Source: Sphingobacteriia bacterium (GTDB taxonomy: Bacteria > Bacteroidota > Bacteroidia > Chitinophagales > Chitinophagaceae). From it: a DNA stretch of 26,273 nucleotides. This document shows positions 2,219 through 17,064 of this stretch, piece after piece. The position numbers and the translations under genes were made by a program. The stretch is taken from contig REAV01000163.1 in NCBI GenBank assembly GCA_004294465.1, positions 1-26,273 on the forward strand, given 5' to 3'. Within the stretch, counting starts at the first letter, position 1, and the number at the start of each line of letters is the position of its first letter. The notes under the pieces are model-generated. The model was given only the letters and a program-made list of their open reading frames with translations, had not been told where the DNA came from and searched no databases.

Positions 2219-2255
2219 AAAGTCAGATTATAATACCAGTCAATATAAAATAACA

Positions 2256-3185
2256 ATGACTAGATGTTCTAATTACCTATTGGCAATTTTTACGACCTTA
2301 ACTTTTTGTTCTTATGGGCAACAAACATGGGGCACAGTTGAAAATAAAAATGATTTAGCATCTCAAACTGATTCAGCAAAACTTGAGCACTACTTTCAAT
2401 GGCAAAATAGTCAAAAAAGTATTAAGCAATTTAAATACGATGATCAATTACTCCTTAAAATTGAAAAAAAAAGAGATAGTTTAAAGATTCTACAATTCCT
2501 CACTAAAAATTATAAAATCATTAAACCAATTGCAGACTTTCCATATAAACCTGCAGACCTGGTTAAATATACTTATGCTATTGATTTAAATGGAGACAAT
2601 TTGCTTGATATGGTTTATGTTGGCCCTTATAGTGGCGATTATAAGATCAGCCAAATTTTTCTAAACAATGATGGCCAGTATAAAAAAGTTTTTTCTGGCA
2701 AGCAAGAAATAGTAAAAATAGGCTTTTCCAAAAAAAGACTAAATTCATTTACTTTACTAAACCCTGGTTGTTGTGCAGATCCAGGACAAGTAGAATACAA
2801 TTATAAAGTTAGCTTTTCAACAAACAAGCCAATTTTCAAACGTACACATACAATTGGCTATTATAACGAAACTGAGAAACCATTATCTATATTTACAAAG
2901 ACCAAAGCGTTCATTGTTAAAGCCGATAAAGCTAAATTGAGATTCGAATGTTATCCATTAGATATAGAACATCCATTTTATGGAATGTACGGTAATTCAA
3001 TTGCTAGTTATAAATCAGGATCAAAGGGAAAAGCGATTGGATTTAAAAAAGAGAATGATGTTGATTGGATTTATGTAATAATGAGTTCAAAAAATAAGAT
3101 TGATAATTGCGATTTTTCTACTTTTAAAGATCAACCAACACAAATCAGGGGTTGGATATTAAAGACCGATATAGAATGGAAATAG
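2256..3185 (+). CDS. Exported protein with FG-GAP/VCBS-like calcium motif and SH3-like C-terminus
   Basis: The product is 309 residues with a signal peptide ending around residue 22 (CSYGQQ). Residues 110-118 read DLNGDNLLD, the DxNGDxxxD calcium loop seen in FG-GAP/VCBS blades, followed by a short beta segment and ISQIFLNNDG. This suggests one or two propeller-like units rather than a full seven-blade propeller. The C-terminal 65 residues (DWIYVIM ... RGWILKTDIEW) resemble a bacterial SH3-like domain ending in a GWI strand. It lies 37 bases behind the secreted protein at 1199 and likely shares its transcript. Extracellular binding or adhesion is a reasonable inference; no enzyme activity is apparent. 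Confidence 0.7.
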   Translation: MTRCSNYLLAIFTTLTFCSYGQQTWGTVENKNDLASQTDSAKLEHYFQWQNSQKSIKQFKYDDQLLLKIEKKRDSLKILQFLTKNYKIIKPIADFPYKPADLVKYTYAIDLNGDNLLDMVYVGPYSGDYKISQIFLNNDGQYKKVFSGKQEIVKIGFSKKRLNSFTLLNPGCCADPGQVEYNYKVSFSTNKPIFKRTHTIGYYNETEKPLSIFTKTKAFIVKADKAKLRFECYPLDIEHPFYGMYGNSIASYKSGSKGKAIGFKKENDVDWIYVIMSSKNKIDNCDFSTFKDQPTQIRGWILKTDIEWK

Positions 3186-3230
3186 AGATTTTTTCAAGTG
3201 TTTATTCCTAATTAAAAAGGGGGTAAATGA

Positions 3231-3956
3231 TCACTTCTTCCCAAACAACAAAAAATGTTGAATAGGTAAAAAGTCGCCACGATAACTCAACTCAAAACCA
3301 TTTGCCCCTAATTCTTTTTTCAATTGTTCCACCGTTGTTTTGTGTAATGCTTTAATAGGTATAGTGGGGTCTTCTCCACGGTATTCTATCAACAGTATCT
3401 TACCGTCTTTTTTTAATGCCGTTTTTAGTGATTGTAACATTTCATGAGGATATTCCAACTCGTGGTATACATCTACCATGATAGCCAGATCGATACTATT
3501 TGCGGGCAGGTTGGGACTTTTTTCTGAACCTTTTATTACACTAACAACCGTATCGCGAATGGCTTGTTTCTTTTGTGCTAAAAAATAGAGCAACTCGTCC
3601 TGTACATCTACAGCATATACTTTTCCTTTTGGAATCTTTGCTGCGATCTTAAAACTATAATAGCCCGTACCTGCACCAATATCCGCCACCACTGCATTCT
3701 TGGGTAAATTCATTTTTTGTATGGCCAACTTTGTATTCTCTTCTTCTTGTCGAGTATCCCGCTCCAACCAATCACTGCCTGCTGCTCCCATCACATAAGA
3801 GATTTCTCTCCCTAAATAATATTTACCAATGCCATCGTAGGATTTTTTTTGATAAGTATAAATTGTATCAGAAAAATGTTTGATCGAAGTGTTGGCTGCT
3901 GCCGATTGAAATATGCACATTAATCCAAGTGCAAAAAAACGAAAGTAAATTTTCAT
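3231..3956 (-). CDS. Class I SAM-dependent methyltransferase with an N-terminal signal peptide
   Basis: The open frame begins upstream at 3986, but the ATG at 3956 gives a plain signal peptide (MKIYFRFFALG, then QSAAANT), so I used 3956; the product is 241 residues. The Rossmann methyltransferase core is clear. Motif I is D92-I-G-A-G-T-G98 (VVADIGAGTGYY), the acidic end of strand beta2 is D117 (VYAVDVQ), and later segments are IDLAIMVDVYHE and GKILLIEYRG. The stretch GAAGSDWLERDTRQEEE before the core is typical of a bacterial methyltransferase subfamily that often carries a leader. The acceptor cannot be read. The leader is odd because SAM is cytosolic. The gene is divergent from the DUF418 gene at 4123. 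Confidence 0.85.
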   Translation of the reverse strand: MKIYFRFFALGLMCIFQSAAANTSIKHFSDTIYTYQKKSYDGIGKYYLGREISYVMGAAGSDWLERDTRQEEENTKLAIQKMNLPKNAVVADIGAGTGYYSFKIAAKIPKGKVYAVDVQDELLYFLAQKKQAIRDTVVSVIKGSEKSPNLPANSIDLAIMVDVYHELEYPHEMLQSLKTALKKDGKILLIEYRGEDPTIPIKALHKTTVEQLKKELGANGFELSYRGDFLPIQHFLLFGKK

Positions 3957-4122
3957 ACATAGCATTGTGCGTAAAGTTAACAACAATGATTTACCTCAAA
4001 CGAAAGCGCTCATCTAAAACTTCTTTCCAATCAATAGTTTATATGCAATTATTTTATTATCTTGTTTTGACTTCCTCTTTATTTGTGCGTATTTTATTAA
4101 ACAACAAATCAACCCAACCAAC

Positions 4123-5442
4123 ATGCATTCAACCAACAACCCCGCTGAACAATCGGCTACGGCTGCATTTGTACCTGTAACCAACTCCGAAAGAATATTG
4201 CCTATCGACATCATGCGGGGCTTTGTGCTTTGTGGTATCTTGCTCATGAATATAACTGGATTTGGTTTATATGGATCCTATAGTAATCCAACTGTATCGG
4301 GTGGTTCAACAGGTTGGGACCTCTATACATGGATTACTACCAATATGGTTTTTGAAGGAACCATGCGTGCCTTGTTCTCTCTTTTATTTGGGGTTGGCAC
4401 ATATATTATTTTAGATCGATTAACTAAAAGTCATGCTGGTATTAAAGCGGCCGACATTTATTTTAGAAGATTGATGTGGATGATCGTTTTTGGATTGATT
4501 CACGGCTACCTTTTATTATGGACCGGTGAGATATTATTTGATTATGCAATCATGGGAATGTTGCTCTATTCGTTTAGAAATCTGGCTCCCAAAACCTTGG
4601 TTTGGATTGCTTTATTGTTTTTCTGCATCGGAGCTTTTTGGACTTATACTGAATACAAAGAAGATCAAAAATTAGTAGCAGATGTGGCCATTGCCAAAAC
4701 GTATACAGCTCAAGGCAAAGAGCTTACTAAAGAATTAAAAGCTGCAACAGCTAGATGGGAAAAAATTGAAGAAAAAAAATCACCGAAAGCGGTAGCAGAA
4801 GCAAATGAAAAAATGCGTAAGGGCTACTTCAGTTTAGTAGCTCATTTGGCTCCATACAATAAAGAAACAGATACTATTTGGGTATACCGTTTCGACTTAT
4901 GGGATGTATTAAGCATGATGTTATTGGGTATTGCTTTTTATAAATGGAATCTGTTCTCTGGCCAAAAATCATATCGTTTTTATGGGTTGATGGTGTTGTT
5001 TGGTTACGCTATTGGATTAAGTACCAACTATTACGAAGTAACATCTCTCATGAATGATAATTTTTCTTTTCTAGCGTTTTCTAAAGCAAACATCACCTAT
5101 GATTTGGGTAGAGTTCCAATGGCTATAGGACATATTGGGTTAATTATGATCTTTACTAAATTACCCATTCTCGGTTGGCTTAAATTGAGACTGGCGGCAG
5201 TTGGTAAAATGGCATTGAGTAATTATATAATGCATTCGCTCATATGCATGATCATCTTTACTGGAGTTGGTTTTGGATTATTCGGTAAACTGCATCGTCA
5301 CGAATTATACTATATCGTTTTCGCAATCTGGATTTTTCAATTAATTCTTAGCCCGATTTGGTTAACCTATTTTCATTTCGGTCCAATGGAATGGTTATGG
5401 AGAAGGTTGAGCTATCAGTATAAGCCGCCTTTTAGAAAATAA
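4123..5442 (+). CDS. DUF418 / YeiB-family multi-pass membrane protein
   Basis: The product is 439 residues. The N-terminus shows the family signature RILPIDIMRGFVLCGILLMN at about residues 24-43. Several hydrophobic helices follow, then a charged, helical soluble loop (about residues 185-240, rich in Lys/Glu/Ala) and the C-terminal DUF418 domain with KMALSNYIMHS and GPMEWLWRRLSY. The family is related to heparan-alpha-glucosaminide acetyltransferase-like membrane acyltransferases, but members such as YeiB have no settled function, so transport or acyl transfer would be guesswork. The next gene begins 17 bases downstream on the same strand, which suggests co-transcription with the exported amidohydrolase. 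About 165 bases separate it from the divergent methyltransferase. Confidence 0.88.
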   Translation: MHSTNNPAEQSATAAFVPVTNSERILPIDIMRGFVLCGILLMNITGFGLYGSYSNPTVSGGSTGWDLYTWITTNMVFEGTMRALFSLLFGVGTYIILDRLTKSHAGIKAADIYFRRLMWMIVFGLIHGYLLLWTGEILFDYAIMGMLLYSFRNLAPKTLVWIALLFFCIGAFWTYTEYKEDQKLVADVAIAKTYTAQGKELTKELKAATARWEKIEEKKSPKAVAEANEKMRKGYFSLVAHLAPYNKETDTIWVYRFDLWDVLSMMLLGIAFYKWNLFSGQKSYRFYGLMVLFGYAIGLSTNYYEVTSLMNDNFSFLAFSKANITYDLGRVPMAIGHIGLIMIFTKLPILGWLKLRLAAVGKMALSNYIMHSLICMIIFTGVGFGLFGKLHRHELYYIVFAIWIFQLILSPIWLTYFHFGPMEWLWRRLSYQYKPPFRK

Positions 5443-5459
5443 ATTCCATAAATTGTAAC

Positions 5460-6734
5460 ATGCTTTATTGTACAAGTAAATATACTTTACTATTCGCTAT
5501 CATTTTCATTGCAATGAGCGCGTATGGACAAACTACCTATTATATTACTGCACCAAGAGTTTTTGATGGCAATCAACTACATGAGAATTGGGCTTTAATT
5601 GTAAAGGCCGACAAAATTATTGCGGCAGGCCCGGCAACGGAAATGAGTACTCCTGCTGGTGCAACCAAGATCAATTATCCGAATGCTACCATAACACCTG
5701 GTTTAATTGAAGGACATTCTCATATGCTGCTCTATCCTTACAATATCAAAGAATGGGATTTGCAGGTAGCTAAAGAAACGGATGAGTACAGAACTATTAG
5801 AGCAACCATTCATGCTAAAAATACTTTGTTGGCGGGCTTTACAACAGCTCGTGATTTGGGATCGGAGGGTGCAGGGTATGCTGATGTTGCTTTGAAAAAA
5901 TCGATTGAAGACAATATTATCATTGGTCCTCGTTTATTGGTGGCGGGCCGTGCCATAGTTGCTACTGGTTCTTATGGCCCCAAAGGGTATGATCTAGATA
6001 ATCAAATAATGTTGGGTGCAGAAGCGGCTGATGGAATGGATCTTCCGCGTGTAGTTCGCGATCAAATTGGAAAAGGGGCTGACCTTATAAAAGTATATGC
6101 CGATTATAGATGGGGACCTAACGATGAAGCTCGCCCTACTTTCACCCTGGATGAATTAAAACTCGTAAATGAAATTACTCTGAGTAGTGGCCGTGTAATG
6201 GTTTGTCATGCAAAAACCAAAGAAGCTATTCGTAGAGCAGTATTGGCAGGGGCAACTACCATTGAACATGGTGATGACCTCGATGCGTCAACTGCTCAAC
6301 TCATGAAACAATATGGAGTGGTGTATATTCCAACATTGGCTGCCACAGAGTCTACATCTCAATACAAGGGTTGGAAAAAAGGTGTAGAGCCGGAACCCGA
6401 AGCAGTACAAAATAAAAGAAGAGCTTTTAAAATTGCAATTGGCGAAGGTGTTATCATAGGTATGGGTGGAGATGTAGGTGTGTTTGCTCATGGCAATAAT
6501 GTACTAGAAATGGAATTGATGGTGAACTATGGCATGAAACCAATCGATGTGTTGAAAGCGGCTACCAGTATTAATGCCAAAGCTTTTCAATTAGACACAG
6601 CATTTGGAAAAATTGAAAAGGGTATGAAAGCCGACATCGCCATTTTTTCGGGCGACCCTTCTAAAAATATTTCCGACTGCAGAAATGTTTTATTGGTAAT
6701 GAAGGACGGTGTAATTTATAGGCAGGAAAAATAA
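5460..6734 (+). CDS. Exported metal-dependent amidohydrolase (prolidase/imidazolonepropionase-like)
   Basis: The product is 424 residues, starting with a signal peptide (cleavage near AYGQ, residue 24). The amidohydrolase metal site is complete: H86-x-H88 in GLIEGHSHM, the probably carboxylated K211 in DLIKVYADY, H250 in VMVCHAK, H270 in TTIEHGDD and D338 in MGGDVG. The C-terminal SINAKAFQLD and GKIEKGMKADIAIF segments close the urease-like barrel and its beta sandwich. This arrangement is that of the exported Xaa-Pro dipeptidase / Xaa-Arg carboxypeptidase-like group. The exact substrate is not readable, but dipeptide or N-acyl amino acid hydrolysis in the periplasm is the likeliest role. It is 17 bases after the DUF418 gene and is followed by another exported hydrolase. 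Confidence 0.88.
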   Translation: MLYCTSKYTLLFAIIFIAMSAYGQTTYYITAPRVFDGNQLHENWALIVKADKIIAAGPATEMSTPAGATKINYPNATITPGLIEGHSHMLLYPYNIKEWDLQVAKETDEYRTIRATIHAKNTLLAGFTTARDLGSEGAGYADVALKKSIEDNIIIGPRLLVAGRAIVATGSYGPKGYDLDNQIMLGAEAADGMDLPRVVRDQIGKGADLIKVYADYRWGPNDEARPTFTLDELKLVNEITLSSGRVMVCHAKTKEAIRRAVLAGATTIEHGDDLDASTAQLMKQYGVVYIPTLAATESTSQYKGWKKGVEPEPEAVQNKRRAFKIAIGEGVIIGMGGDVGVFAHGNNVLEMELMVNYGMKPIDVLKAATSINAKAFQLDTAFGKIEKGMKADIAIFSGDPSKNISDCRNVLLVMKDGVIYRQEK

Positions 6735-6810
6735 TGGTTACCAAAATAGATTTCAATAAAAAATCAAATTCTTTCGATATCAATTAATAGCATTACGTAA
6801 ACTTACCATC

Positions 6811-8685
6811 ATGAAAAAAATCCTTTTTGTTTTATTGAGTATCATCTTCTTGCAACAACTAACAGCGCAAGACACATCATTAATTTACCGCAGGCTAGAT
6901 TCTATTGCCATTATCGATCAAAAAGTAATGATGCCTATGCGTGATGGTGTGCGACTAGCAACAGATATTTATCGCCCAAAGGGCAATGCAAAAGTGCCGA
7001 TTATTTTTTCTAGAACACCTTATAATTTTAATACCTGGATTGATGGTAAAATGGTTACAGGCACTATACAAGCTGCTTATGAAGCGGTTAGTAGAGGCTA
7101 TGCCTATGTAGTACAAAACGAAAGAGGCCGCTATTTTTCAGAAGGCACCTGGGATATTTTGGGCACTCCAATTACAGATGGCTATGATGCACTGAGTTGG
7201 ATGCAAAAACAAATATGGAGTAATGGTAAAGTGGGATTGATCGGTTGTTCTTCTACTGCGGAATGGCAGATGGCAGTTGCTTCACAGAATCATCCGGCAC
7301 TTGCTGCAATGGTGGCCCAAGGTTATGGTGCTGGAGTTGGTCGAATCGGAAAATTCAATGAGCAAGGAAATTGGTACAGAGGTGGTGCACAACAAATGTT
7401 GTTTACTTCCTGGTTGTACGGGACTCAAAACGATCAATATAAACCAACACTTCCAAAAGATATTAAGCAAGCCGACTTACAACGCTTACAGCGATTTTAT
7501 GATATGGGTACCGAAATGCCTCGTGTTGATTGGGCGGTAGGGTTAAAGCACCTTCCTGTTAAAGACATCATTAAAAATGTAAATGGACAAATAGGCATTT
7601 ATGATAAAATGATTCCTCGTAAACCCAATGACCCAGCATGGTTCAAGGGAGGCCTGTATCATGATAATATGCCTTTTGAAGTACCTTCTTATTGGTTTGT
7701 TTCTTGGTATGATGTTTCTTCTGCACCCAATATTGCGTTGTTTAATCATGTGCGCAACAATGCAAAAAAACAAGGTGTGGCAGACAATCAATATTTAGTG
7801 ATTGCTCCCGTACTGCACTGTTCTTATAAAAGAGCAACAGAAAATACCATTGTTGGCGAACGCAGTGTAGGTGATGCACGTTTGAATTATGATGAACTTA
7901 CATGGGGTTGGTTTGATCTTTTATTGAAAGGAGAAAAAAATGATTTCAAACAAAAAAATCCTCGTGTTAGATACTATACCATGGGCAGCAATAAATGGCA
8001 AGCTGCAGAATCTTTTCCTTTGCCCAATACCAAAGTGCAAAATTTTTATTTAACGAGTGAAGGAAAGGCCAATACCAGTAATGGCAATGGTAAATTAGTG
8101 ATGAAACCTTCAACAACCGATATGCCCGATGCATTTACCTATGATCCGATGAATCCTGTTCCTTCATATGGAGGTAATGTTTGCTGTACCGGAAACGCTG
8201 TGCAGGGAGGATCTTACGATCAATCTAAAATGGAATTAAGGGATGATATTTTAGTTTATACATCTGATGAATTAAAAGAAGGAACAGAGATTACTGGTTT
8301 TATAGAATCCACCTTATATGTATCTTCTACTGGATTAGATACAGACATCACTTTGAAATTGATTGATGTATATCCTGACGGCAAAGCATATAATTTGGAT
8401 GAAACCATCCAAAGACTTCGTTACAGAGATGGCTATAACAAAGAAGTTTGGATGGAGAAAGGCAAGGTGTACAAAGTAGATTTAACTCCGTTGGTTACGA
8501 GCAACTATTTTGCAGCAGGTCATAAAATTCGCATTGAAGTTTCAAGCAGTAATTTTCCGCGCTTCGATCGTAATTTAAATACTGGCGGAAAAAATTATGA
8601 TGAATCAAAAGGAGTTATAGTAGAAAATAAAATTCATCACTCAGAAAAATATCCTTCTGTAATTAAATTACCGATTATTCGGTAA
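6811..8685 (+). CDS. Exported CocE/NonD-family alpha/beta hydrolase (X-Pro dipeptidyl-peptidase S15 type)
   Basis: The product is 624 residues with a signal peptide ending LTAQ (residue 20). The S15/CocE entry motif [17 protein letters not shown] spans residues 40-56. The oxyanion/loop segment [13 protein letters not shown] lies near 100-112. The nucleophile elbow is G145-C-S147-S-T-A-E, with Ser147 as the likely nucleophile, in a form lacking the usual second Gly. A candidate catalytic His is in APVLHCSY. The C-terminal jelly-roll domain begins around residue 450 and includes [25 protein letters not shown] and [17 protein letters not shown]. Family members cleave X-Pro dipeptides, cocaine-like esters or beta-lactam amides, and the choice cannot be made here. 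It lies 76 bases after the amidohydrolase and overlaps the convergent gene at 8668 by 18 bases. Confidence 0.88.
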
Positions 8686-9165
8686 GGGAAACCCCATGCT
8701 TTCAGCACACCAAAAAATATTTACAATATAGTAGCGTTCCTTGTCTTTAAAAAGCTGGATACTGTTGATGCCCCTATTGGTAGCAATTCCTTGGGGGCTT
8801 TCACTGGTTAAATATGTGCTAAAAACATGGACAATAGTTCCATATTCCTGTATTTCTTGGGATAGTTCTTTTTCAAAAAACCCCGTTTTAATTCGGCTAG
8901 TAAACATCGTAATATATTCTTCCGGGCTAAGCATTTTATACTGAAAATCACCATTAGGTGTTTTTGAAGTTGGTATTAACTTGGCATCTTTTCCGAACAA
9001 AAACCTAAATCGATCCCAATTGCGATCCTTTCCTGCTTCGCCAGAAATTACTTCATAAAGGCTTTTAATGATTTTATCAACCGACTTAACATCATTCGAA
9101 TAATCTTGGGCATATAGTAAAGAATTAAGCCACAAGAACGCCACTACAAAAAATGTTTTTTTCAT
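8668..9165 (-). CDS. Small exported NTF2-like protein
   Basis: The product is 165 residues with a signal peptide (MKKTFFV ... LLYAQ). The mature part begins with a helix carrying [12 protein letters not shown], then [18 protein letters not shown], and ends with a strand pair ([21 protein letters not shown]). This is the usual order of elements in the cone-shaped NTF2/SnoaL fold. No catalytic residues can be assigned with confidence. Many exported Bacteroidota members of this fold are uncharacterised. Its last 18 bases overlap the end of the convergent CocE-type hydrolase, so the two share a short antisense tail. Confidence 0.75.
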
Positions 9166-9225
9166 CTTCTTAATTTTTTGCCGAAAAAACCTTCAAATAA
9201 TTTGGGATAAAAAACGAATATAAAT

Positions 9226-9654
9226 TTATACTCTATGATGATCAGCTCTCCAGTTTTGAATGGCTGTTTTAATTGCTTTGCTGGATAAATTTTCAGCTGC
9301 CGCTTTTTGAGCCAACGCAACAAATTCATCATCAGATGCAAAACGCAATGCAATGATTTGTCCGATTCGTAGTTCCTTTGGCAATAATTTTCCGGTCATA
9401 GCAAAATATCTTAAATTCTCTTCTGCCCTGATGGCTCGGTCCTGTGCTTTTAAAGCAAATAAGCGGGCATAAGCAAAAATGAATCCTAAAATGATAGCTA
9501 CTAAACAGATCAATGAAGCAGAGTATAAGTTTTCGGAGGCCGAATGTGAGAGATTAATAAATGATCCAATTAATAATGCAAGAATGGCCAAAAAAGTAAT
9601 TCCATGCCAGCCAGCTACTAATCTTCTATGGTTGCTAAAATTTTGAGTTTTCAT
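9226..9654 (-). CDS. DUF6526 family membrane protein
   Basis: The open frame extends upstream to 9834, across the neighbouring divergent gene, but recognisable protein starts only at the ATG at 9654 (MKTQNFSNHRRLVAGWHG), giving 142 residues. Two hydrophobic helices are visible at about residues 18-36 and 46-66. They are followed by the family signature: YARLFALKAQDRAIRAEENL, then an amphipathic tail with QIIALRFASDDEFVALAQ. I recognise this as DUF6526, a small integral membrane family of unknown function. It is divergent from the YaiO-type gene, with 86 bases between the starts. Confidence 0.85.
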   Translation of the reverse strand: MKTQNFSNHRRLVAGWHGITFLAILALLIGSFINLSHSASENLYSASLICLVAIILGFIFAYARLFALKAQDRAIRAEENLRYFAMTGKLLPKELRIGQIIALRFASDDEFVALAQKAAAENLSSKAIKTAIQNWRADHHRV

Positions 9655-9695
9655 GTGTTTGTGATTATTTGTTTTTTTGAAGATAGATATTGTAG

Positions 9696-9722
9696 TTGGT
9701 ATTTTGATGAATTGTATCTTTA
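9696..9722 (+). promoter_or_regulatory. Candidate promoter for the YaiO-type operon
   Basis: TTGG at 9696-9699 is separated by 15 bases from TATCTTTA at 9715-9722, a near match to the Bacteroidota TAnnTTTG -7 box with A as last base. The box ends 18 bases before the first ATG of the operon. The spacing is slightly short, so this is a candidate only. Confidence 0.3.
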
Positions 9723-9740
9723 AATGAATATTAGCATACA

Positions 9741-11018
9741 ATGCAAATGAAGAAATTATTTTTTGGTTTGATATTGATGGGCAGTCTTTGTTCAGGCAGA
9801 TTAAAAGCGCAAGACAGCACATCGAAAGCCCCAATTGATACTTCCAGCTCCGATGGTTTATTTCAAGCGGCTCGAAGGGCTGCTTTCGACAACAAAGATT
9901 ATCCCTTAGCTAAGAGTTATTGTAAGAGAGCTTTAGAAAAAAGCCCCAATTATGCAGATATCCGTATTTTTTTAGGAAGAATGTATACCTGGACCGATCA
10001 ATACGATAGTGCCAAAGCCTGTTTCGAAAAGGTCTTAGCAAGAGAACCCGATTATGAAGACGCTTCATTGGCATATGCCGATTTGCAATATTGGAATAAT
10101 TATAACAAAGAGACTGTTGCCATTTGTGATGCCGGATTAAAAGCACATCCCGAATCGAAAGACCTGCTTATTAGAAAAGCAAAAGCACTTACTGCATTAA
10201 AAGACTACGCGGCAGCTCATATAATCACCACCAATTTATTGATAAAAGATAAAACCAATACCGATGCTCGGTCTTTGGAAAACAGGATCAAAGATGAATC
10301 GGTTAAAAATAAAATTGGTGTTAGCTACGACTACAACACTTTCGACAAACAATATGACGATCCTTGGCATTTATTGAGTGTTGATTACAGCAGAACTACA
10401 GGCATTGGTTCAGTTATTGGAAGGTTTAATTACGCTAATCGTTTTGCTAGTACTGGCACCCAATTCGAAATAGACGCTTATCCCAGAATCAACAAAACAT
10501 TTTATAGTTATGTAAGTATGGGTTTTGGAGATAATTCTGGTTTGTTTCCAAAATTCAGAGCTGGCTTTTCTTTGTATGCCAATTTGCCAAAAAGTTTTGA
10601 AACAGAAATTGGATTTCGTTACCTTAAATTCACTGGTACGCCTACCTGGATTTATACCGCTTATATCGGGAAGTATACTGGAAATTGGTTGCTCGGAGCA
10701 AGAACCTATATTACCCCAAGCGATTTTGTAAAAAAAGTTTCAGTCTCTTATAGTGTAACAGCTCGATACTATTTAGGCGGAGCAGATGATTTTATAGGAA
10801 CCGTTTTTGGATACGGAATATCACCGGATGATCGATATAATAATATACAAATTAATACAGCTTTATTGAGTAGCTATCGAATTGGATTAACGTATAAAAA
10901 GCGAGTTAATGTTGGCAATAATTTCATTGCAGATCTTGGCTGGTTTAATCAAGAGTATTTACCCGGTACAAAGGGCAACCAATATTTAATCAGCGCAGGA
11001 TGGCAGTTTCGGTTTTAA
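9741..11018 (+). CDS. TPR plus YaiO-family outer-membrane beta-barrel protein
   Basis: The product is 425 residues; the start may be ATG 9741 or ATG 9747 (MKKLFFG). A signal peptide ends at LKAQ (residue 24). Residues 35-180 contain about four TPR helix pairs, for example DYPLAKSYCKRALEKSPNYA and QYDSAKACFEKVLAREPDYE. Residues 190-425 are amphipathic beta strands rich in Tyr and Gly, ending in SAGWQFRF with the C-terminal Phe typical of outer-membrane barrels. This is the YaiO-type barrel. The TPR-then-barrel order resembles polysaccharide exit porins such as PgaA and NfrA, though the barrel here is smaller. It overlaps the next gene by 19 bases and faces a GT2 synthase operon, so polysaccharide export is the leading inference. 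Confidence 0.88.
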   Translation: MQMKKLFFGLILMGSLCSGRLKAQDSTSKAPIDTSSSDGLFQAARRAAFDNKDYPLAKSYCKRALEKSPNYADIRIFLGRMYTWTDQYDSAKACFEKVLAREPDYEDASLAYADLQYWNNYNKETVAICDAGLKAHPESKDLLIRKAKALTALKDYAAAHIITTNLLIKDKTNTDARSLENRIKDESVKNKIGVSYDYNTFDKQYDDPWHLLSVDYSRTTGIGSVIGRFNYANRFASTGTQFEIDAYPRINKTFYSYVSMGFGDNSGLFPKFRAGFSLYANLPKSFETEIGFRYLKFTGTPTWIYTAYIGKYTGNWLLGARTYITPSDFVKKVSVSYSVTARYYLGGADDFIGTVFGYGISPDDRYNNIQINTALLSSYRIGLTYKKRVNVGNNFIADLGWFNQEYLPGTKGNQYLISAGWQFRF

Positions 11019-12181
11019 AAAAATCAATTTGGAAAGACCTTCGTTTTATTATCTTAATAATAATCTTCTTTCCGTTATGGCTTTGGTTGTATTGGTGGCT
11101 AAGTCCAAAAACCAATTTAAGTATTGCGATTATTGATAAAACGGTTTTAAATAATCGATACCAAGAACACAATTCTTTGTTTTGGATTTTAGGGCATGAA
11201 AAATATACTAAAAGAAATGGTGGCTTTTATGAACCGAATAAAAGTTATTATGGCTTCTTTCCTTTAGATAGCAATAAATATCGAATTAAAGGACTGGAAA
11301 GGTTTGATCAATCAAAATTAGATCAGCTGGTGAAAGACTGCGATATGGTATATGTTACAGATACTTATGGAATTTATACAGAAGAATGGCATCAATTAGC
11401 TGTGCTGGGCGATCGTTCTTCATTAATTTATGGAGGACTCAGCAAACAAGATCTTTCCTTTTTGCAAGGAATGCATAAAGTAGGCAAATTGATTGTTGCC
11501 GAATTTAATACAATTGGATCTCCAACAGCAGATCCTATCCGAAATGAATTTGAAAAAGAATTTGGCGTTAAATGGTCTGGCTGGAATGGCAGGTATTTTA
11601 GTGCTTTCGATACTATAAAAAATCCTGAATTACCCAAATGGTTATATAGAAACTACCAGCGAGATCATAATGGTGAATGGCCCTTTAAAAACGATGGTAT
11701 TGCTTTAGTAAGCAAATACGATGAAATAATTGTTTTAGAAAGAGGGGATGGATTAGACCAAGACGTTTATGCACACATTATTTCAACCCCTTCAACACAA
11801 AATAATTTCGGCGTTCCTAAAGACTTTAAATATAATTATTGGTTTGACATCATGTATGCAGACCCTTTGGTAAATAATGTTTTATCAACATTTGAATTAC
11901 CGGTAAATGAAAAGGGTAAAAAATTATTGTCAGATTATAAAGTTCCATTTAGTTTTCCTGCAGTGATTCAATCGATTGATGCTAAAAAACCATTTTATTA
12001 TTTATCAGGAGATTTTTCGGATAATCCTATCAACATGAAAACAGTACAGTTTGGGGGAGCCCCATTGTATAAATGGATGTTGATTGATTATGACGATAAA
12101 CTAGATCGTTCTGTTTTCTTTTGGAATTTTTACCGACCAATGGTTACTGCTATTCTAAAAGATGGTGTAAAAAAATATTGA
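11000..12181 (+). CDS. Membrane-anchored periplasmic protein of unknown family
   Basis: The product is 393 residues. A short basic N-terminus is followed by one long hydrophobic helix (about residues 15-35, IILIIIFFPLWLWLYWWL), suggesting an inner-membrane anchor with the bulk in the periplasm. The remainder alternates strands and helices (NLSIAIIDKTVL, DMVYVTDTYGIY, KLIVAEFNTIGSPT), which could be a Rossmann-like or GATase-like fold; this is only an impression. Other distinctive blocks are EFGVKWSGWNGRYF, YYLSGDFSDNP and FFWNFYRPMV. It begins inside the end of the YaiO-type gene (19-base overlap), implying translational coupling and a joint role. Its stop lies 3 bases from the ancestral stop inferred for the facing synthase gene. 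I cannot name the function. Confidence 0.75.
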   Translation: MAVSVLKKSIWKDLRFIILIIIFFPLWLWLYWWLSPKTNLSIAIIDKTVLNNRYQEHNSLFWILGHEKYTKRNGGFYEPNKSYYGFFPLDSNKYRIKGLERFDQSKLDQLVKDCDMVYVTDTYGIYTEEWHQLAVLGDRSSLIYGGLSKQDLSFLQGMHKVGKLIVAEFNTIGSPTADPIRNEFEKEFGVKWSGWNGRYFSAFDTIKNPELPKWLYRNYQRDHNGEWPFKNDGIALVSKYDEIIVLERGDGLDQDVYAHIISTPSTQNNFGVPKDFKYNYWFDIMYADPLVNNVLSTFELPVNEKGKKLLSDYKVPFSFPAVIQSIDAKKPFYYLSGDFSDNPINMKTVQFGGAPLYKWMLIDYDDKLDRSVFFWNFYRPMVTAILKDGVKKY

Positions 12182-12184
12182 TGT

Positions 12185-12268
12185 TTAGTTTCCATAACGC
12201 TTAATTAAGCTATCAGGCAATAAGCGCGCACCCTTTTGAACAAGCCCATTCTTTTGTTTAAATAAATT
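12185..12268 (-). other. Out-of-frame remnant of the synthase C-terminus
   Basis: On the minus strand, the frame in which the second copy of a 13-base repeat continues the pattern N-L-F-K stays open from 12268 to a TAA at 12187-12185. It reads NLFKQKNGLVQKGARLLPDS and then LIKRYGN. The annotated synthase frame instead stops at 12267 after NLFKWCI. The composition, the shared NLFK junction and the position of the stop (3 bases from the facing gene) make this look like the original C-terminal tail of the synthase/phosphotransferase, now detached by a frameshift. Confidence 0.55.
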
Positions 12269-12291
12269 AAATGCACCATTTAAATAAATTA
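12257..12291. repeat. 13-base direct repeat at a 22-base offset
   Basis: TTTAAATAAATTA occurs at 12257-12269 and again at 12279-12291, an offset of 22 bases. Since 22 is not a multiple of three, a duplication of this unit shifts the reading frame of the minus-strand gene. The second copy sits inside the last codons of the synthase gene and the first spans its stop codon. Confidence 0.8.
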
Positions 12292-15200
12292 CCATGCAAA
12301 TAATTATTCACTTCGTTTTTGGTTTGCATAAACGGATAAGACTTGGTGATTCTGAAAGCTCGATTGGTATCTAGTCCGGTACCCATCCAAATTGCTTGAG
12401 ATGGAACAGACAAGCCATAGGATTGATGCAACCACTGTAAAATGGAAGGAGTAATATCAAAATGCGTTGACACAGCATTCATAGTTGCCCTTCTTTTTAG
12501 TAAAGGCGAATATATCATCAAGGGTACATGATAGCGATCAATCTTAGTGCTCATTGGAATTTCCGGCATTCGGTGGTCGCCAGTAATGATGAAAACGGTA
12601 TTGGCAAAATCAGGATCTTGTTTCGCTTTTGCAAAAAATGTTTTCAATGCATCATCTAAAAATAGAATACTTGCATATTGTTGTTTGTAATTTCTATAGT
12701 TTGATTTCTTTGATTCTTCAATTTGAATGGTATTTAACCGCTCTTCGAATTTTGACAAATAGGTTTCTTGTTCATTAATTAAAAAAGGACTATGAGTGGA
12801 AACCGTTAATACTATATTACAATAGGGTGAATTTGTTTTTTTGTTTTGATTGAAGGTATATTTTCTAAACAATTCTTTATCGCCATAACCCCAACTAAAA
12901 CCAGAAGCGCTTTTGGGCATTTGAGTATATCCTTTTCCAAAACTATTGATATCGTTTACCGACCCTACTCCATTCTTTTTTAAAAATACGTCCATGTAAT
13001 CAAAATGAGCATCACCGCCATAATAAAAAGCATTTTGATAACCGTTCTTCTTGAGTATACTGGTTAATGATAAAGTAGATGGCATATCATTGCCCATTTC
13101 TGTAAAGCCAAATTTTCCAAATGGCAAAGAACCTAATACAGAAGGTAATACCGCAAATGTTCTTCCTCCCTCACTCAAAAAATTAGGCCAATACAAACTT
13201 TGTTTAGAAAGAGAGTCTATAAATGGAGTAAAATTTCCTAAATAAGCTCCATCGTTCGTGAATGCCCGGCCCAATCCTTCCACTAATACAATAACGATAT
13301 TGGGTGGTTGGGTGGATTTATTAAAGAAAGGCGATAATACATCTGCCGAACTATCTATGTTATGTAAAAAAGGATAATCTGCGTTTGTATAATTTATTTT
13401 CGCCATCTTATTGGATGCATCCTCCCCAAAATCTCCACTATAAGCATCATCATAAATATTGGTATTGATCTTTTTCGGAAAAAAGTAATTAATACTTTTT
13501 CTATATAAAAAATAGGTTTTGTTTAAACTCAGGTTTTGATCATATTCCGTTGACATTGCACGGTTTTTCTGACGAATTGGGTTTTTCGCCATAAATACGA
13601 TGGCCATGGACCCTACTAAAATACCTGCACCTAAATGGGTAAAATGAATTTTTTTTGGAAGTTTATTAATTGCCCAAACAATACCAGCTATTAAACCCGT
13701 TAATAAAACAACATTCATAAAACTGAGTACTCCACTCGCTCTAACGGTTTGTTTAATCTCTGCCCATGAGTATCCCCAAATATCTGCACCCAATGGCACC
13801 AATGCAGTTAAAAAATATTGAGATAGAAATAATTGCGCTAATACAATTAGGGTTCCGAAAATTTGTAAAAATATTTTTGCTGTTTTTTGATGTAATTGAT
13901 ACAGTAAAGTAAAAACGATAAATAATTGAAATCCGAAACCAAACAAGTAGGTAAGATCAGCTATAACCGTATACCTTAATAATTCGAGCATGGAATCTTT
14001 GATGCTGTTGGAGAAGTACCCCATTCCAATTTCATAACACCTAGCAAGAAAAAACAATCCAATTACTGTTGTGTAGATATTTGCAAATACCCTTACAGGA
14101 AGCGTAAACAGTTTTTTTCCTTCATCATTTAATGGAACTTCTTTAACTGCAACAGTCGGACTAAATCCCGCCCGCTGCATTACTCCCCATGATTTTACTT
14201 TTTGAAAATAATCTGCAAAGCCATTCATTGCGGCCCAAACGATAACAGGATGATAAACGAAGGGCTCTATCATAGAAACCAATATTAACTTTAAAGTATC
14301 ACCCCTGGTTTTATATTGATTAAATGTAGACGCTTCCATCAATACCGCAAATGATGAAAAAGTAAAGGCACTGCTCCAAACAAAAGCGAAGAACCAGCCA
14401 AAAACTTGCCAATTTACTTCTCCTAGAATGGCCATGGTAATAAAAAAAAGCATCCCAAAAAATTCTATCGGTGCTGCTAGCATTTCAAAAAAGAACCAAT
14501 ACGGATAACTCAACAAACCCAATAATCCATATTTTTTATTGAAGAATAAAGTTCTGTGGTCGCGCAGGGTTTCAATAGTACCGCGAGTCCATCTATTTCT
14601 TTGGCGAATCAAAATTTTATAAGATACAGGCGCTTCAGTCCAGCAAAGTGGTTCTGGAATATAGGTTACAGTATATTTTTGTTTCTGTTCGTGCATGTAC
14701 CTGCGCATTCGAACAACCAATTCCATGTCTTCACCAACTGTATTGGTATTGTAACCACCACAAGCAATGGCAATTGATTTGTCAAAAGCGCCAAATGCTC
14801 CGGAGATCAATAACAATCCATCCAACCTGCTCCAGGCCATTCTGCCCAATAAAAAAGAACGGATATATTCTAAACTTTGTAATCGGGGCAATAACTGTTT
14901 AGGCAAAACAACATTCACTAATTTTCCATGTTCTACAATACAGGAATTAGCAATACGAACAACTCCTCCTGTTGCAATCACTCGAACATCAGTACGATCA
15001 AGAAATGGTTTAACTATTTTGAACAATGCATCTTGTTCTAAAATACAATCCACATCAACACAAACAATTATATCTCCAGAAGCAATATTGATACCGGCAT
15101 TTAAACTATCAGCTTTGCCTCCATTTTCTTTATCTACAATGACCAGTCTATCATAAGCCGGGTTCTTGCTTTTGTATACAGCTCGAATAGGTTTTGTTGA

Positions 15201-15575
15201 AATTAAGTTAGGTACAAATGTGTTGGTTTTTTCCAATTCATAGGTAGCAATTAACTTTTCCATACTATCGTCCTTGCTGCCATCATTGATAATGACTATT
15301 TGTAATTGATAATAATAGATCGTTAAAAGTGATTTTACATTTTCAATGATTGTAGCAGACTCATTGAAAGCAGGCGCCAGAATACTTATTGAAGGTGTAT
15401 GGTGTGATGGTGCTAATAATTTGAAATCTGTTGACTTATTTTTGCGTTCGTAATAACTCAATTCTCTAACTGAAAAGAATGACAAAAACAAGTATGCAAG
15501 AAAAATTGCTACGGAATAAAAAAATAATCCGTAAGCAAAAAAATCACTGACTGCACTCTCCCAACTTATAAACAT
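12267..15575 (-). CDS. Fusion of a processive GT2 polysaccharide synthase with an LtaS/EptA-like phosphotransferase domain
   Basis: The product is 1102 residues. After a transmembrane helix (about 14-36), residues 60-340 form a GT2 domain with all motifs of a processive synthase: D98 in IINDGS, D174-V-D176, G281-E-D283, and Q325-R-N-R-W329. Further helices lie at about 358-383, 390-414, 493-513, 535-558, 568-592, 615-636 and 645-663. No PilZ signature (RxxxR, DxSxxG) is seen. Residues 755-1075 form an alkaline-phosphatase-superfamily domain like LtaS/MdoB: E766 in VLVEGLGR, likely nucleophile T806 in SEGGRTFAV, H857 near YYGGDAHFDY, H928 in STHSPF and D1000-H1001 in ITGDHR. The Thr nucleophile favours phosphoglycerol or phosphoethanolamine transfer over sulfate ester hydrolysis. 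It overlaps the HEAT gene by 10 bases. The C-terminus appears shortened by a frameshift. Confidence 0.9.
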   Translation of the reverse strand: MFISWESAVSDFFAYGLFFYSVAIFLAYLFLSFFSVRELSYYERKNKSTDFKLLAPSHHTPSISILAPAFNESATIIENVKSLLTIYYYQLQIVIINDGSKDDSMEKLIATYELEKTNTFVPNLISTKPIRAVYKSKNPAYDRLVIVDKENGGKADSLNAGINIASGDIIVCVDVDCILEQDALFKIVKPFLDRTDVRVIATGGVVRIANSCIVEHGKLVNVVLPKQLLPRLQSLEYIRSFLLGRMAWSRLDGLLLISGAFGAFDKSIAIACGGYNTNTVGEDMELVVRMRRYMHEQKQKYTVTYIPEPLCWTEAPVSYKILIRQRNRWTRGTIETLRDHRTLFFNKKYGLLGLLSYPYWFFFEMLAAPIEFFGMLFFITMAILGEVNWQVFGWFFAFVWSSAFTFSSFAVLMEASTFNQYKTRGDTLKLILVSMIEPFVYHPVIVWAAMNGFADYFQKVKSWGVMQRAGFSPTVAVKEVPLNDEGKKLFTLPVRVFANIYTTVIGLFFLARCYEIGMGYFSNSIKDSMLELLRYTVIADLTYLFGFGFQLFIVFTLLYQLHQKTAKIFLQIFGTLIVLAQLFLSQYFLTALVPLGADIWGYSWAEIKQTVRASGVLSFMNVVLLTGLIAGIVWAINKLPKKIHFTHLGAGILVGSMAIVFMAKNPIRQKNRAMSTEYDQNLSLNKTYFLYRKSINYFFPKKINTNIYDDAYSGDFGEDASNKMAKINYTNADYPFLHNIDSSADVLSPFFNKSTQPPNIVIVLVEGLGRAFTNDGAYLGNFTPFIDSLSKQSLYWPNFLSEGGRTFAVLPSVLGSLPFGKFGFTEMGNDMPSTLSLTSILKKNGYQNAFYYGGDAHFDYMDVFLKKNGVGSVNDINSFGKGYTQMPKSASGFSWGYGDKELFRKYTFNQNKKTNSPYCNIVLTVSTHSPFLINEQETYLSKFEERLNTIQIEESKKSNYRNYKQQYASILFLDDALKTFFAKAKQDPDFANTVFIITGDHRMPEIPMSTKIDRYHVPLMIYSPLLKRRATMNAVSTHFDITPSILQWLHQSYGLSVPSQAIWMGTGLDTNRAFRITKSYPFMQTKNEVNNYLHGNLFKWCI

Positions 15576-16693
15576 ATTTCAGTTTGAAGGTGTTTAATTA
15601 ATTGCGCTTTTCTTTCTTTATTATTGTCTTCTACAGATTCAACCAACAATAAACCTTTATCATAATGCTTCGCTATATTTTCAGCAGCTTTTAATCGAAT
15701 TAATTCGTTGGGCTCTTTCAATAAGCTTACCAGTAATTTAGCACCAGGTATTTCTGGTAATAACATCAATACATCGAGTAATAATAATTGATTCTCAATG
15801 GTCTCATTGCTATATTGATTTTCAAGTTTTTCGTTGGTATCAAATACATTTATTTTTTCGCAACAGCGTATAGCATGATATCGAATTAATGGATTGGAAT
15901 GGTCTAAACAGGCTATCATATTTGTATAGAAACGACCATCGGGATATTCGAATAAAATCTTTAATCCCAACAATACTACAGAATCATTCGTAGAACTTAT
16001 CCAAATAGGCATTTCATCCAATGGCTTTGGAGTAAAAAGTTTTAATTGTTCTAATATATTAATTTGATCCCAAGTGCTTAATTGATTTTGTACATTTTTT
16101 AAAAAACGCAAAGCATCAAAGCCTTGTAAATTAACCACACCAAATTGGGCTTCTGCTCTTATGAATGGGTTGGAGTTGTCTGCAAAACGATACAACTGTT
16201 CCATTGCATCGTATTGATCAAAAATATAAATTTCCTGTATCCCTGTTACTACTCTACTCCATATACCACTTTTTAATTTTTTATTGGTCACTTTTCTTAA
16301 ATCCAATTCTTCATATAAATTCACTGCTGCTTGCATAGCAACCCCTTTCAAATATTTTTTGCAAACCAACAATTCTTCAACAGCAATATTTCTTTTGATC
16401 GAATTCTTCAAAGCTGCTTTTAGTTCTAATGGAATGGTAACAATATGTTTAGGGCTTTTAGCTAAAAGTGTAAACTCTTCGGCTACCCATTTTCTGAAAT
16501 GTGCTTCAAACTGCGTTTGTATTCTTTTGTAAATTCTTCTAAATACGGCAAATCCTACCGTTACCAAAATAATCACCAATCCTGCACAGATCGTAATTAA
16601 AGTAATGGTCTGCATTAACTCTTTGCTCAAACTTATTTTTAATAGCTGAGTTATAAAAATCACAATACCTAATATGCTTTGAGCTAAAATCAT
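15566..16693 (-). CDS. Membrane-anchored HEAT-repeat protein
   Basis: The product is 375 residues. Two hydrophobic helices (about residues 2-20 and 28-50) are followed by a basic stretch (RRIYKRIQ) and a long all-helical region. Repeated helix pairs carry HEAT-like patterns such as NPFIRAEAQFGVVNL, NPLIRYHAIRCCEKI and NELIRLKAAENIAKHY. It probably sits at the inner membrane with the HEAT solenoid in the cytosol, acting as a scaffold or adaptor; no enzyme motif is present. Its start codon overlaps the stop of the receiver gene (TAATG) and its end overlaps the synthase gene by 10 bases, so the three are translationally coupled. The likely partner is the GT2 domain or the receiver. Confidence 0.85.
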   Translation of the reverse strand: MILAQSILGIVIFITQLLKISLSKELMQTITLITICAGLVIILVTVGFAVFRRIYKRIQTQFEAHFRKWVAEEFTLLAKSPKHIVTIPLELKAALKNSIKRNIAVEELLVCKKYLKGVAMQAAVNLYEELDLRKVTNKKLKSGIWSRVVTGIQEIYIFDQYDAMEQLYRFADNSNPFIRAEAQFGVVNLQGFDALRFLKNVQNQLSTWDQINILEQLKLFTPKPLDEMPIWISSTNDSVVLLGLKILFEYPDGRFYTNMIACLDHSNPLIRYHAIRCCEKINVFDTNEKLENQYSNETIENQLLLLDVLMLLPEIPGAKLLVSLLKEPNELIRLKAAENIAKHYDKGLLLVESVEDNNKERKAQLIKHLQTEICL

Positions 16694-17064
16694 TAGTGTA
16701 TACTACTACTTGTTTTTTGAACCTGAATAAATGCAACCAATTCCTCTAAATCGAAAGGTTTAGAATAATAAGTATGAACGCCCATTTCTAGATGTTCTTC
16801 TTTTGCATCTTCTTGTTGAAATAAGGCAACGATGATAATAAAAAGTTTCGGAAGTTTTTCTAAAGCATAAGCAATTACTTCTTTGCCACTATAGAATGGT
16901 ATTAGCAGATTAGTGATTAGCATATCTGGCTGAAAAGAATCAATCAATTCCCTTGCTGTTTTTCCGTCTCCACAAGCGGCAGTTTCCCAGCCCTCAGCCA
17001 ATAATCGTTTTTCAACAATGGCCATTAAAATAGGCTCTTGTTCTACAATCAACACTTTATTCAT
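16693..17064 (-). CDS. Stand-alone response-regulator receiver domain, degenerate (pseudo-receiver)
   Basis: The product is 123 residues, the length of a single CheY-like domain with no output domain. The fold pattern is clear: VLIVEQEP at strand 1, PDMLITNLLIP at strand 3, and YYSKPF at strand 5. Key residues are altered. The acidic pair is E8/Q9, the phosphorylation site is N52 instead of Asp, the conserved Thr/Ser position appears to be A80 (IIIVALF), and only K102 is kept. Phosphotransfer is therefore unlikely, and the domain may act by protein binding alone. It is the first gene of a coupled operon with the HEAT protein and the GT2 fusion, so it probably regulates or assembles that complex. 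It is divergent from the DUF1080 gene. Confidence 0.88.
   Translation of the reverse strand: MNKVLIVEQEPILMAIVEKRLLAEGWETAACGDGKTARELIDSFQPDMLITNLLIPFYSGKEVIAYALEKLPKLFIIIVALFQQEDAKEEHLEMGVHTYYSKPFDLEELVAFIQVQKTSSSIH

Follow-up and report, generated by a model that had tools for sequence, protein, structure and literature searches.

The subject of this analysis is a five-gene locus at positions 9741..17064 of a 26,273-nt stretch of DNA from a Sphingobacteriia bacterium (contig REAV01000163.1; the whole stretch is called the window below). An earlier note had read the locus as a candidate synthase-dependent exopolysaccharide system made up of a TPR plus YaiO-type barrel, a membrane-anchored protein of unnamed family, a pseudo-receiver, a membrane-anchored HEAT protein and a glycosyltransferase family 2 (GT2) domain fused to an LtaS-like one, laid out in two operons that face each other. 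Open reading frames (ORFs) and scans against Pfam and NCBIfam, from which the domain labels used here are taken, bear out this set of parts, which we call the module (Table 1). The genes form two convergent runs with 85 bp between their stop codons. Within the runs they overlap, by 19 bp between the genes of the barrel and the unnamed protein, by 10 bp between GT2-LtaS and HEAT and by 1 bp between HEAT and receiver. The genome to which the window belongs is incomplete (1.78 Mb, 70.6% complete).

Table 1. Genes of the locus and the two catalytic domains of the fusion protein (positions in the window)
Feature	Positions	Strand	Length	Domain evidence
TPR-YaiO barrel protein	9741-11018	+	425 aa	
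Membrane-anchored protein of unnamed family	11000-12181	+	393 aa	
GT2-LtaS-like fusion	12267-15575	-	1102 aa	
GT2 synthase domain, residues 1-480	14136..15575	-		PF00535, PF13641; DxD, ED and QxxRW motifs
LtaS/OpgB-like catalytic domain, residues about 757-1049	12429..13307	-		Sulfatase PF00884, E 2.5e-32; alkaline-phosphatase superfamily
Membrane-anchored HEAT protein	15566-16693	-	375 aa	
Stand-alone receiver	16693-17064	-	123 aa	

The grouping of these genes goes far beyond chance. Seeded with the synthase, a search through 198 genomes of the order led to 32 regions, whose ORFs were scored with profiles grown from the window proteins. At the 23 loci (from 22 genomes) whose GT2 reached at least 640 bits, a HEAT protein was found in every case, a receiver of fewer than 190 residues at 20, the barrel at 19, the LtaS-like enzyme at 12 and the unnamed protein at 10; one further barrel, at the locus numbered L034 in our search, was recognised by TIGR04390. 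The HEAT gene lies no more than 50 bp from the GT2 gene in 19/23 of these loci, and two loci with missing parts, L060 and L064, sit on contigs of 11-12 kb. The unnamed protein, used as the seed, matched 12 of 345 genomes in the phylum, one of them being that of the window, and nine loci were fetched, all from other families than that of the window. All six parts are present in seven of the nine; these seven fall in three families of the search's own numbering and are not seven independent events. Two loci were counted as misses, L077, which lies near a contig end, and L078, in which no GT2 or HEAT was found. The two seeds are independent, whereas the profile scores are not, since these very loci served to train the profiles. 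ORF clustering, which took in 47 loci and left out L038-L044, found GT2/LtaS in 45 loci, REC in 38, the barrel in 32, HEAT in 31 (main cluster) and the unnamed protein in 21, and these are the only families that occur in more than four loci. The conserved co-occurrence of the five families on which the earlier note had made its reading depend thus proved strong, extends beyond Bacteroidota and supports the interpretation of the locus as a synthase-dependent exopolysaccharide system. The constant core is GT2 plus HEAT, usually with a receiver; the fusion of GT2 to LtaS and the dead receiver of the window are lineage traits and not part of that core.

Nine regions (L037-L045), which are more distant or were seeded with LtaS, were kept apart from this tally. 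In L045 the GT2 is accompanied by HEAT and barrel, and L039 holds a barrel and an LtaS at a contig end. L037 speaks against strict universality of the GT2-HEAT pairing, as its GT2 of 501 bits occurs with a barrel and no HEAT match. In that region the more distant GT2 (8994-11981) adjoins a barrel-like protein of 511 residues, and the next gene (5827-8988) gives a sub-threshold polysaccharide-deacetylase match. A protein of 1122 residues encoded elsewhere in the window's genome (L038, 5292-8657) contains a further, distant GT2, and no HEAT, receiver or barrel was found near it; frames of 1100-1200 residues with similarly weak GT2 matches recur in the order-wide search.

The barrel protein of the window consists of a signal peptide (read by eye), a TPR region (TPR_19, E 1.7e-16) and a C-terminal YaiO outer-membrane beta-barrel, recognised by PF19413 (E 4e-72) and TIGR04390 (190 bits, cut-off 32), in agreement with the earlier description. 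In 20/20 near-complete module genomes (of 29 known) the YaiO family is present in exactly one copy, always inside the module locus, and it was unmatched in 25/25 near-complete genomes chosen for lack of a close GT2 match (Fisher p 3e-13, with the genomes hand-chosen and kinship uncorrected). An outer-membrane TPR barrel that is genetically tied to a synthase in this way is among the features expected of synthase-dependent exopolysaccharide systems. Very large TPR-YaiO proteins (955, 958, 1013 and 988 aa) occur at L035, L036, L065 and L091, where one protein family adjoins them, with DUF4838 in the three members scanned; no LtaS or unnamed protein was found at these four loci.

That the barrel is the exporter is best supported by its distribution, which follows the outer membrane. 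A tblastn search of plasmid records with two GT2 members gave 10 and 14 records, 14 of them distinct, of which 11 were examined (two further Mesorhizobium records and one Legionella record were left out); nine of these 11 come from outside Bacteroidota and three are archaeal. The HEAT gene adjoins GT2 in 11/11 by annotation or profile (9/11 by profile), that is, in Mesorhizobium, Erythrobacter, Devosia, Deinococcus, Emticicia, Bacteroides, Paenibacillus, Planococcus and three haloarchaea, and a stand-alone receiver is present in 7/11. A TPR/YaiO barrel gene is present in Mesorhizobium, Emticicia, Erythrobacter, Deinococcus, Bacteroides and Devosia, which we take to be diderms (6/6), and was not found on the plasmid stretches of Paenibacillus, Planococcus and the three haloarchaea, which we take to be monoderms (0/5). 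The exporter candidates of Deinococcus and Erythrobacter are annotated as TPR only, and their matches to the barrel profile are weak (32 and 41 bits). The TPR/barrel gene thus tracks the presence of an outer membrane. Members of the set include Mesorhizobium ciceri WSM1271 (L084) and Emticicia oligotrophica DSM 17448 (L085); in the stretch covered for the latter, no gene for the unnamed protein was found. A locus of Paenibacillus hunanensis (L001) agrees with this split, having within 21 kb HEAT, GT2, the unnamed protein and, 6.5 kb away, a receiver, and no barrel. The runs on the haloarchaeal plasmids (L088, L089 and L090) have the order receiver-HEAT-GT2. In Planococcus maritimus (L092, 936-8371), genes annotated as encoding a polyphosphate-polymerase domain and a CotH kinase precede the HEAT-GT2 pair.

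The synthase domain carries the DxD, ED and QxxRW motifs of processive membrane GT2s, which are expected of synthase-dependent exopolysaccharide systems. Among 45 homologues, the patterns were found anywhere in the chain in 45 (DxD), 44 (QxxRW) and 39 (ED). These motifs and the co-occurrence together support the pairing of a processive GT2 with a TPR-barrel exit porin that the earlier note had seen in the locus. For all four GT2 members scanned the best curated family is PgaC_IcaA, at 119-145 bits with a cut-off of 422, and on the plasmid of the haloarchaeon Halosolutus a gene for a GlmU-like nucleotidyltransferase and glmS lie downstream of GT2. Both observations point, weakly, to an N-acetylhexosamine polymer, and the product is perhaps a sugar chain of this kind.

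In the fusion protein a polytopic segment follows the GT2 domain and leads to the LtaS/OpgB-like domain. The latter aligns with VP1736 (PDB 3lxq), LtaP (4uop) and LtaS (2w5q), and E766, T806, D899, H928, D1000 and H1001 are invariant in 22/22 sequences, with H1016 present in 18; from LtaS, we take these to be the metal and nucleophile positions. The domain thus combines PF00884 with the catalytic Thr and the metal-binding E/D/H residues that characterise LtaS/OpgB enzymes, and scores below the equivalog cut-offs (43 against 970 bits and 51 against 572 bits). Toward its 3′ end (12182-12290) the window's GT2-LtaS gene is shorter than those of relatives, and a relative-like tail is readable there in another frame, which points to a small indel or a misassembly at the end of the gene. 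The phosphotransferase on the synthase chain, which the earlier note presented as a built-in part, is real in the window and is a minority arrangement in the family: the fusion occurs in 6/21 module loci holding an LtaS-like gene (window included), and at other loci the enzyme is encoded separately, has a TPR of its own or is absent. Fused proteins lie on three branches of a quick GT2 tree (unsupported), and the chains of five fused homologues have no unknown residues. LtaS-like enzymes with an added C-terminal TPR segment that resembles the exporter's are encoded at L062 (4455-7010), L063 (8683-11181) and L082 (4621-7110), on gap-free chains, and these link the enzyme to the export side. A candidate single-chain LtaS-TPR-barrel fusion at L060 (6741-10319) was rejected because its frame crosses a gap in the record that accounts for 33 unknown residues.

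Being joined to the synthase in some loci and to TPR segments in others, the LtaS-like enzyme fits a role on the nascent chain, and the module would then make a phosphorylated polymer. An alternative explanation is that the LtaS-like domain makes a separate polymer of the polyglycerol-phosphate type or modifies a glycolipid, the barrel exporting only the GT2 product. It is true that relatives with the Sulfatase fold are common elsewhere in these genomes (loci L040-L044) and that 11/23 module loci have no LtaS. However, the same LtaS subfamily is fused to GT2 in six loci and to exporter-like TPR in three, the enzyme is fused to GT2 or lies at most 6 kb from it at 12/23 loci, and profile scoring of the five LtaS-seeded control loci (L040-L044) found none with GT2, HEAT, barrel or the unnamed protein, and we consider this alternative unlikely. 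Decoration of the synthase product by the LtaS-like enzyme, the reading that we favour, is perhaps an optional part of the system. Phosphoglycerol as a certain substituent was not upheld, as a pgsA equivalog scores above cut-off in 2/13 module genomes, neither of which belongs to the window's family. The test is a weak one, with weaker pgsA matches in 13/13 module genomes and only 6/14 control genomes exceeding the cut-off. Because the equivalog is found in only two genomes, a supply of phosphatidylglycerol is uncertain, and phosphoethanolamine is possible.

The membrane-anchored protein encoded next to the barrel is present as described earlier and matches no family above cut-off, catalytic or other, in Pfam or NCBIfam. 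Its predicted fold (pLDDT 91) is of the GATase1/ThuA-like alpha/beta/alpha type and, among the structure-search matches listed, resembles the sugar-binding domain of Agd3, with an identity to Agd3 of 8-13%. The family comprises 778 matched homologues, with named relatives at about 60% identity from Sediminibacterium; among the matches listed (the best 120 of 241) it reaches several Bacillota genera, with single named records in Bdellovibrionota, Spirochaetaceae and Deltaproteobacteria. The protein, held by its membrane anchor, probably lies outside the cytoplasm, and on the strength of the modelled fold we propose that it is a polymer-binding or guiding subunit. It could instead be an enzyme that acts on the chain, such as a hydrolase, lyase or transferase. 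This possibility is supported by the many polar residues (D46, K47, H57, D121, E168, R198, D338 and D341) that are conserved at 95% or more across 57 rows of the family, and by an extension of about 650 residues that the domain carries in Paenibacillus cellulosilyticus. On the other hand, the nucleophilic Cys of class-I amidotransferases is not conserved (the top Cys column, position 340, has Cys in 41/57 rows and the next in 14/57), the scans mentioned above gave no catalytic family, and the relatives of the fold in exopolysaccharide systems are, in the source excerpts used, sugar-binding domains of deacetylases. An enzymatic role is a real but lesser possibility, and we prefer the binding or guiding one. 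The Paenibacillus cellulosilyticus protein (L083, 11827-14925) is 1033 residues long and has the domain at its N-terminus, and no family scored above cut-off in the extension; a glycoside hydrolase, which was a by-eye impression, is not claimed there, as no library or PDB match supports it.

The HEAT protein has two hydrophobic N-terminal segments by hydropathy, followed by HEAT repeats. The HEAT match of the window protein is below the Pfam cut-off (22.8 against 27.7 bits), but a relative passes, and the family alignment and profile match alphaRep/HEAT structures, so the protein can indeed be called a membrane-anchored HEAT protein. Strong matches to the HEAT profile (at least 82 bits) lie at the module in each of 20 genomes, other matches staying below 45 bits. 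The repeats are probably cytoplasmic because the membrane anchor that precedes them is followed by basic residues. The window receiver is recognised by Response_reg (PF00072, E 1.6e-16) and is degenerate, with Q9, N52 and A80 in place of the D, D and S/T of most relatives, while K102 is kept; lacking the phospho-acceptor Asp (N52), it is not a canonical receiver. The earlier view of it as a pseudo-receiver therefore holds for the window and does not hold for the family, since 20/23 aligned receivers keep all markers (both acidic residues, the acceptor Asp, the Ser/Thr and the Lys). Among the loci studied here, only three have a degenerate form: the window, L046, which is its closest relative, and the more distant L061. 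In the first two the acceptor Asp, an acidic partner and the Ser/Thr are lost, and in L061 only the acceptor Asp is lost, with Glu in place of the acidic partner. Where the acceptor Asp is lost, control must differ. At L051 and L059 hybrid histidine kinases with a C-terminal Hpt domain (that of L059 just under cut-off) adjoin the receiver, and together with the intact receivers these suggest phosphotransfer. In Mesorhizobium an annotated ATP-binding protein precedes two receivers, and an Hpt gene follows GT2.

From adjacency and topology, the receiver would act through the HEAT protein on the synthase. Receiver and HEAT protein might, however, only scaffold or localise the synthase, as in polar placement or complex assembly, with signalling taking place elsewhere. 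HEAT proteins in general serve as scaffolds, and those of the module are fast-diverging (25% mean column identity); the receiver is degenerate in the three cases just named, no stand-alone receiver was found near 3/23 GT2-seeded loci, and none was found on the stretches of Deinococcus, Bacteroides, Planococcus and Paenibacillus cellulosilyticus. The marker residues kept by 20/23 receivers and the kinases beside L051 and L059 argue for a signalling role, and we consider pure scaffolding rather unlikely. Exopolysaccharide synthases such as those of cellulose and poly-N-acetylglucosamine are commonly switched by cyclic di-GMP (c-di-GMP) (PMC8669469). The earlier note had seen no PilZ domain or c-di-GMP motif in the locus, and a genome-wide search of 21 module genomes, including the incomplete one of the window, agrees with it: PilZ was unmatched in 21/21 and GGDEF in 19/21, the two genomes with GGDEF being of one genus. 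Control by c-di-GMP is thus unlikely for most Bacteroidota members. Outside Bacteroidota, GGDEF occurs in Paenibacillus, and a PilZ gene lies nearby in Erythrobacter. In the L001 run (1434-11125) the genes encode a receiver, a kinase-like protein, a receiver-GGDEF protein, HEAT, GT2 and the unnamed protein, and from the receiver-GGDEF protein a c-di-GMP input in Bacillota is possible.

Several known systems share parts with the module. In the type II Bcs system of E. coli the exporter BcsC carries TPRs, and BcsG presumably belongs to the same superfamily as the LtaS-like domain. That system consists of an inner-membrane GT2 synthase, the synthase-held phosphoethanolamine transferase BcsG, the exporter BcsC and the REC* regulator BcsE, and its BcsB, which is anchored in the membrane, forms a periplasmic crown containing flavodoxin-like and carbohydrate-binding domains (PMC11470070). 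As Bcs is portrayed in the parts of that paper used here, the module resembles it in having a synthase, an anchored partner, an outer-membrane exporter, a phosphotransferase and a REC; unlike Bcs, it has no PilZ match, its control parts are HEAT and receiver, its phosphotransferase is, in the window, covalently fused, and the window GT2 reaches 37 bits against a CelA cut-off of 699. The NfrB-NfrA-YbcH system of E. coli has a QxxRW GT2, a TPR-rich outer-membrane pore protein and an anchored periplasmic accessory protein, and NfrB is activated by c-di-GMP via an MshEN domain (PMC8669469). These three parts, as described there, recur in the module, whereas the nfrBA-ybcH operon in the same description has no HEAT, receiver or LtaS-like gene. 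MshEN is not among the 7 Pfam and 25 NCBIfam families found at E up to 1 for the window protein, in scans that included no dedicated MshEN profile search.

The Pga/Ica systems resemble the module in their TPR-barrel exporter and in PgaC_IcaA being the best family of its GT2. In contrast, the four GT2s are below the PgaC cut-off of 422 (window, 119 bits), the YaiO-type exporter gives 23.6 bits against a PgaA cut-off of 366.65, and no PgaB-type deacetylase is found in the module. By these family scores and domain tests the module is not a member of Pga or Bcs. The E. coli yaiO-yaiX-yaiP-yaiS cluster likewise has a YaiO barrel near a GT2; unlike the module, it contains an acyltransferase pseudogene and a putative deacetylase, and none of the genes annotated in the 12 kb viewed is for a HEAT protein, a receiver or an LtaS. 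Against the module profiles, YaiP gives only a weak GT2 match (58 bits) and YaiO gives no barrel match. The CBM87 domain of Agd3 and the alpha/beta/alpha domain of PelADA are polymer-binding parts of exopolysaccharide deacetylases (PMC7229062, PMC13254593), and the GATase1/ThuA-like fold predicted for the unnamed protein appears to be like them as they are depicted in the excerpts used; in contrast to Agd3, the protein is a free-standing, membrane-anchored form in which no esterase domain was found. With LtaS, LtaP and OpgB the window domain shares its superfamily and catalytic residues, and it differs from them in its fusion to a polysaccharide synthase and in scores far below the equivalog level.

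Considered together, we think it likely that the locus encodes a synthase-dependent exopolysaccharide system that is controlled by HEAT protein and receiver, decorated by an LtaS-like enzyme and exported by a YaiO barrel, and by analogy it may work like Bcs type II and Nfr. The GT2 would polymerise the sugar, most likely N-acetylhexosamine, and move the chain across the inner membrane, just outside which the anchored GATase1-like protein would bind or guide it. The synthase-tethered LtaS-like domain would add a phospho-alcohol from a membrane lipid, and the TPR-YaiO barrel would let the polymer out across the outer membrane. The HEAT protein, anchored beside the synthase and probably cytoplasmic, would serve as the adaptor for control. 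A phosphorylated stand-alone receiver could, in most relatives, dock on it and set synthase activity, replacing c-di-GMP and PilZ, while in the window's lineage the receiver without a phosphorylation site is probably a constitutive or otherwise regulated subunit. A broader proposal, which we put somewhat short of an even chance, is that these synthases form an unnamed class of processive enzymes, spread over several bacterial phyla and haloarchaea and gated post-translationally by a phosphorelay via a HEAT adaptor, to which YaiO, GATase1-like and LtaS-like parts are add-ons that vary with envelope and lineage. If true, such gating would be a two-component counterpart of c-di-GMP/PilZ gating, and a synthase tied to HEAT and receiver would explain how secreted polymers are controlled in bacteria that give no match to c-di-GMP parts, in monoderms and in archaea. 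Our reading would also give a role to the unnamed protein family, and the fused phosphotransferase would be a natural covalent version of the BcsA-BcsG association, making decoration at the synthase testable on one chain. Among the matches listed in titles and abstracts of open-licence literature, no system combining HEAT, GT2 and YaiO, or receiver, HEAT and GT2, was found; the HEAT mentions in three candidate papers, as far as their text was available, concern beta-catenin, a Bacteroides thetaiotaomicron gene-list entry and a type III effector.

The genes that flank the locus (amidohydrolase, proline racemase family, DUF885, M24 peptidase, methyltransferase, 3-keto-disaccharide hydrolase and others) were scanned and have no evident link to the module, and a terminator and promoter scan of the stretch between the two runs found none. 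The genome that holds the window's closest relative (G095) contains a second, divergent copy of the module (L047, 7127-13438). No barrel lies in the stretch fetched for this copy, which comprises HEAT, a fused GT2-LtaS, the unnamed protein and an intact receiver.

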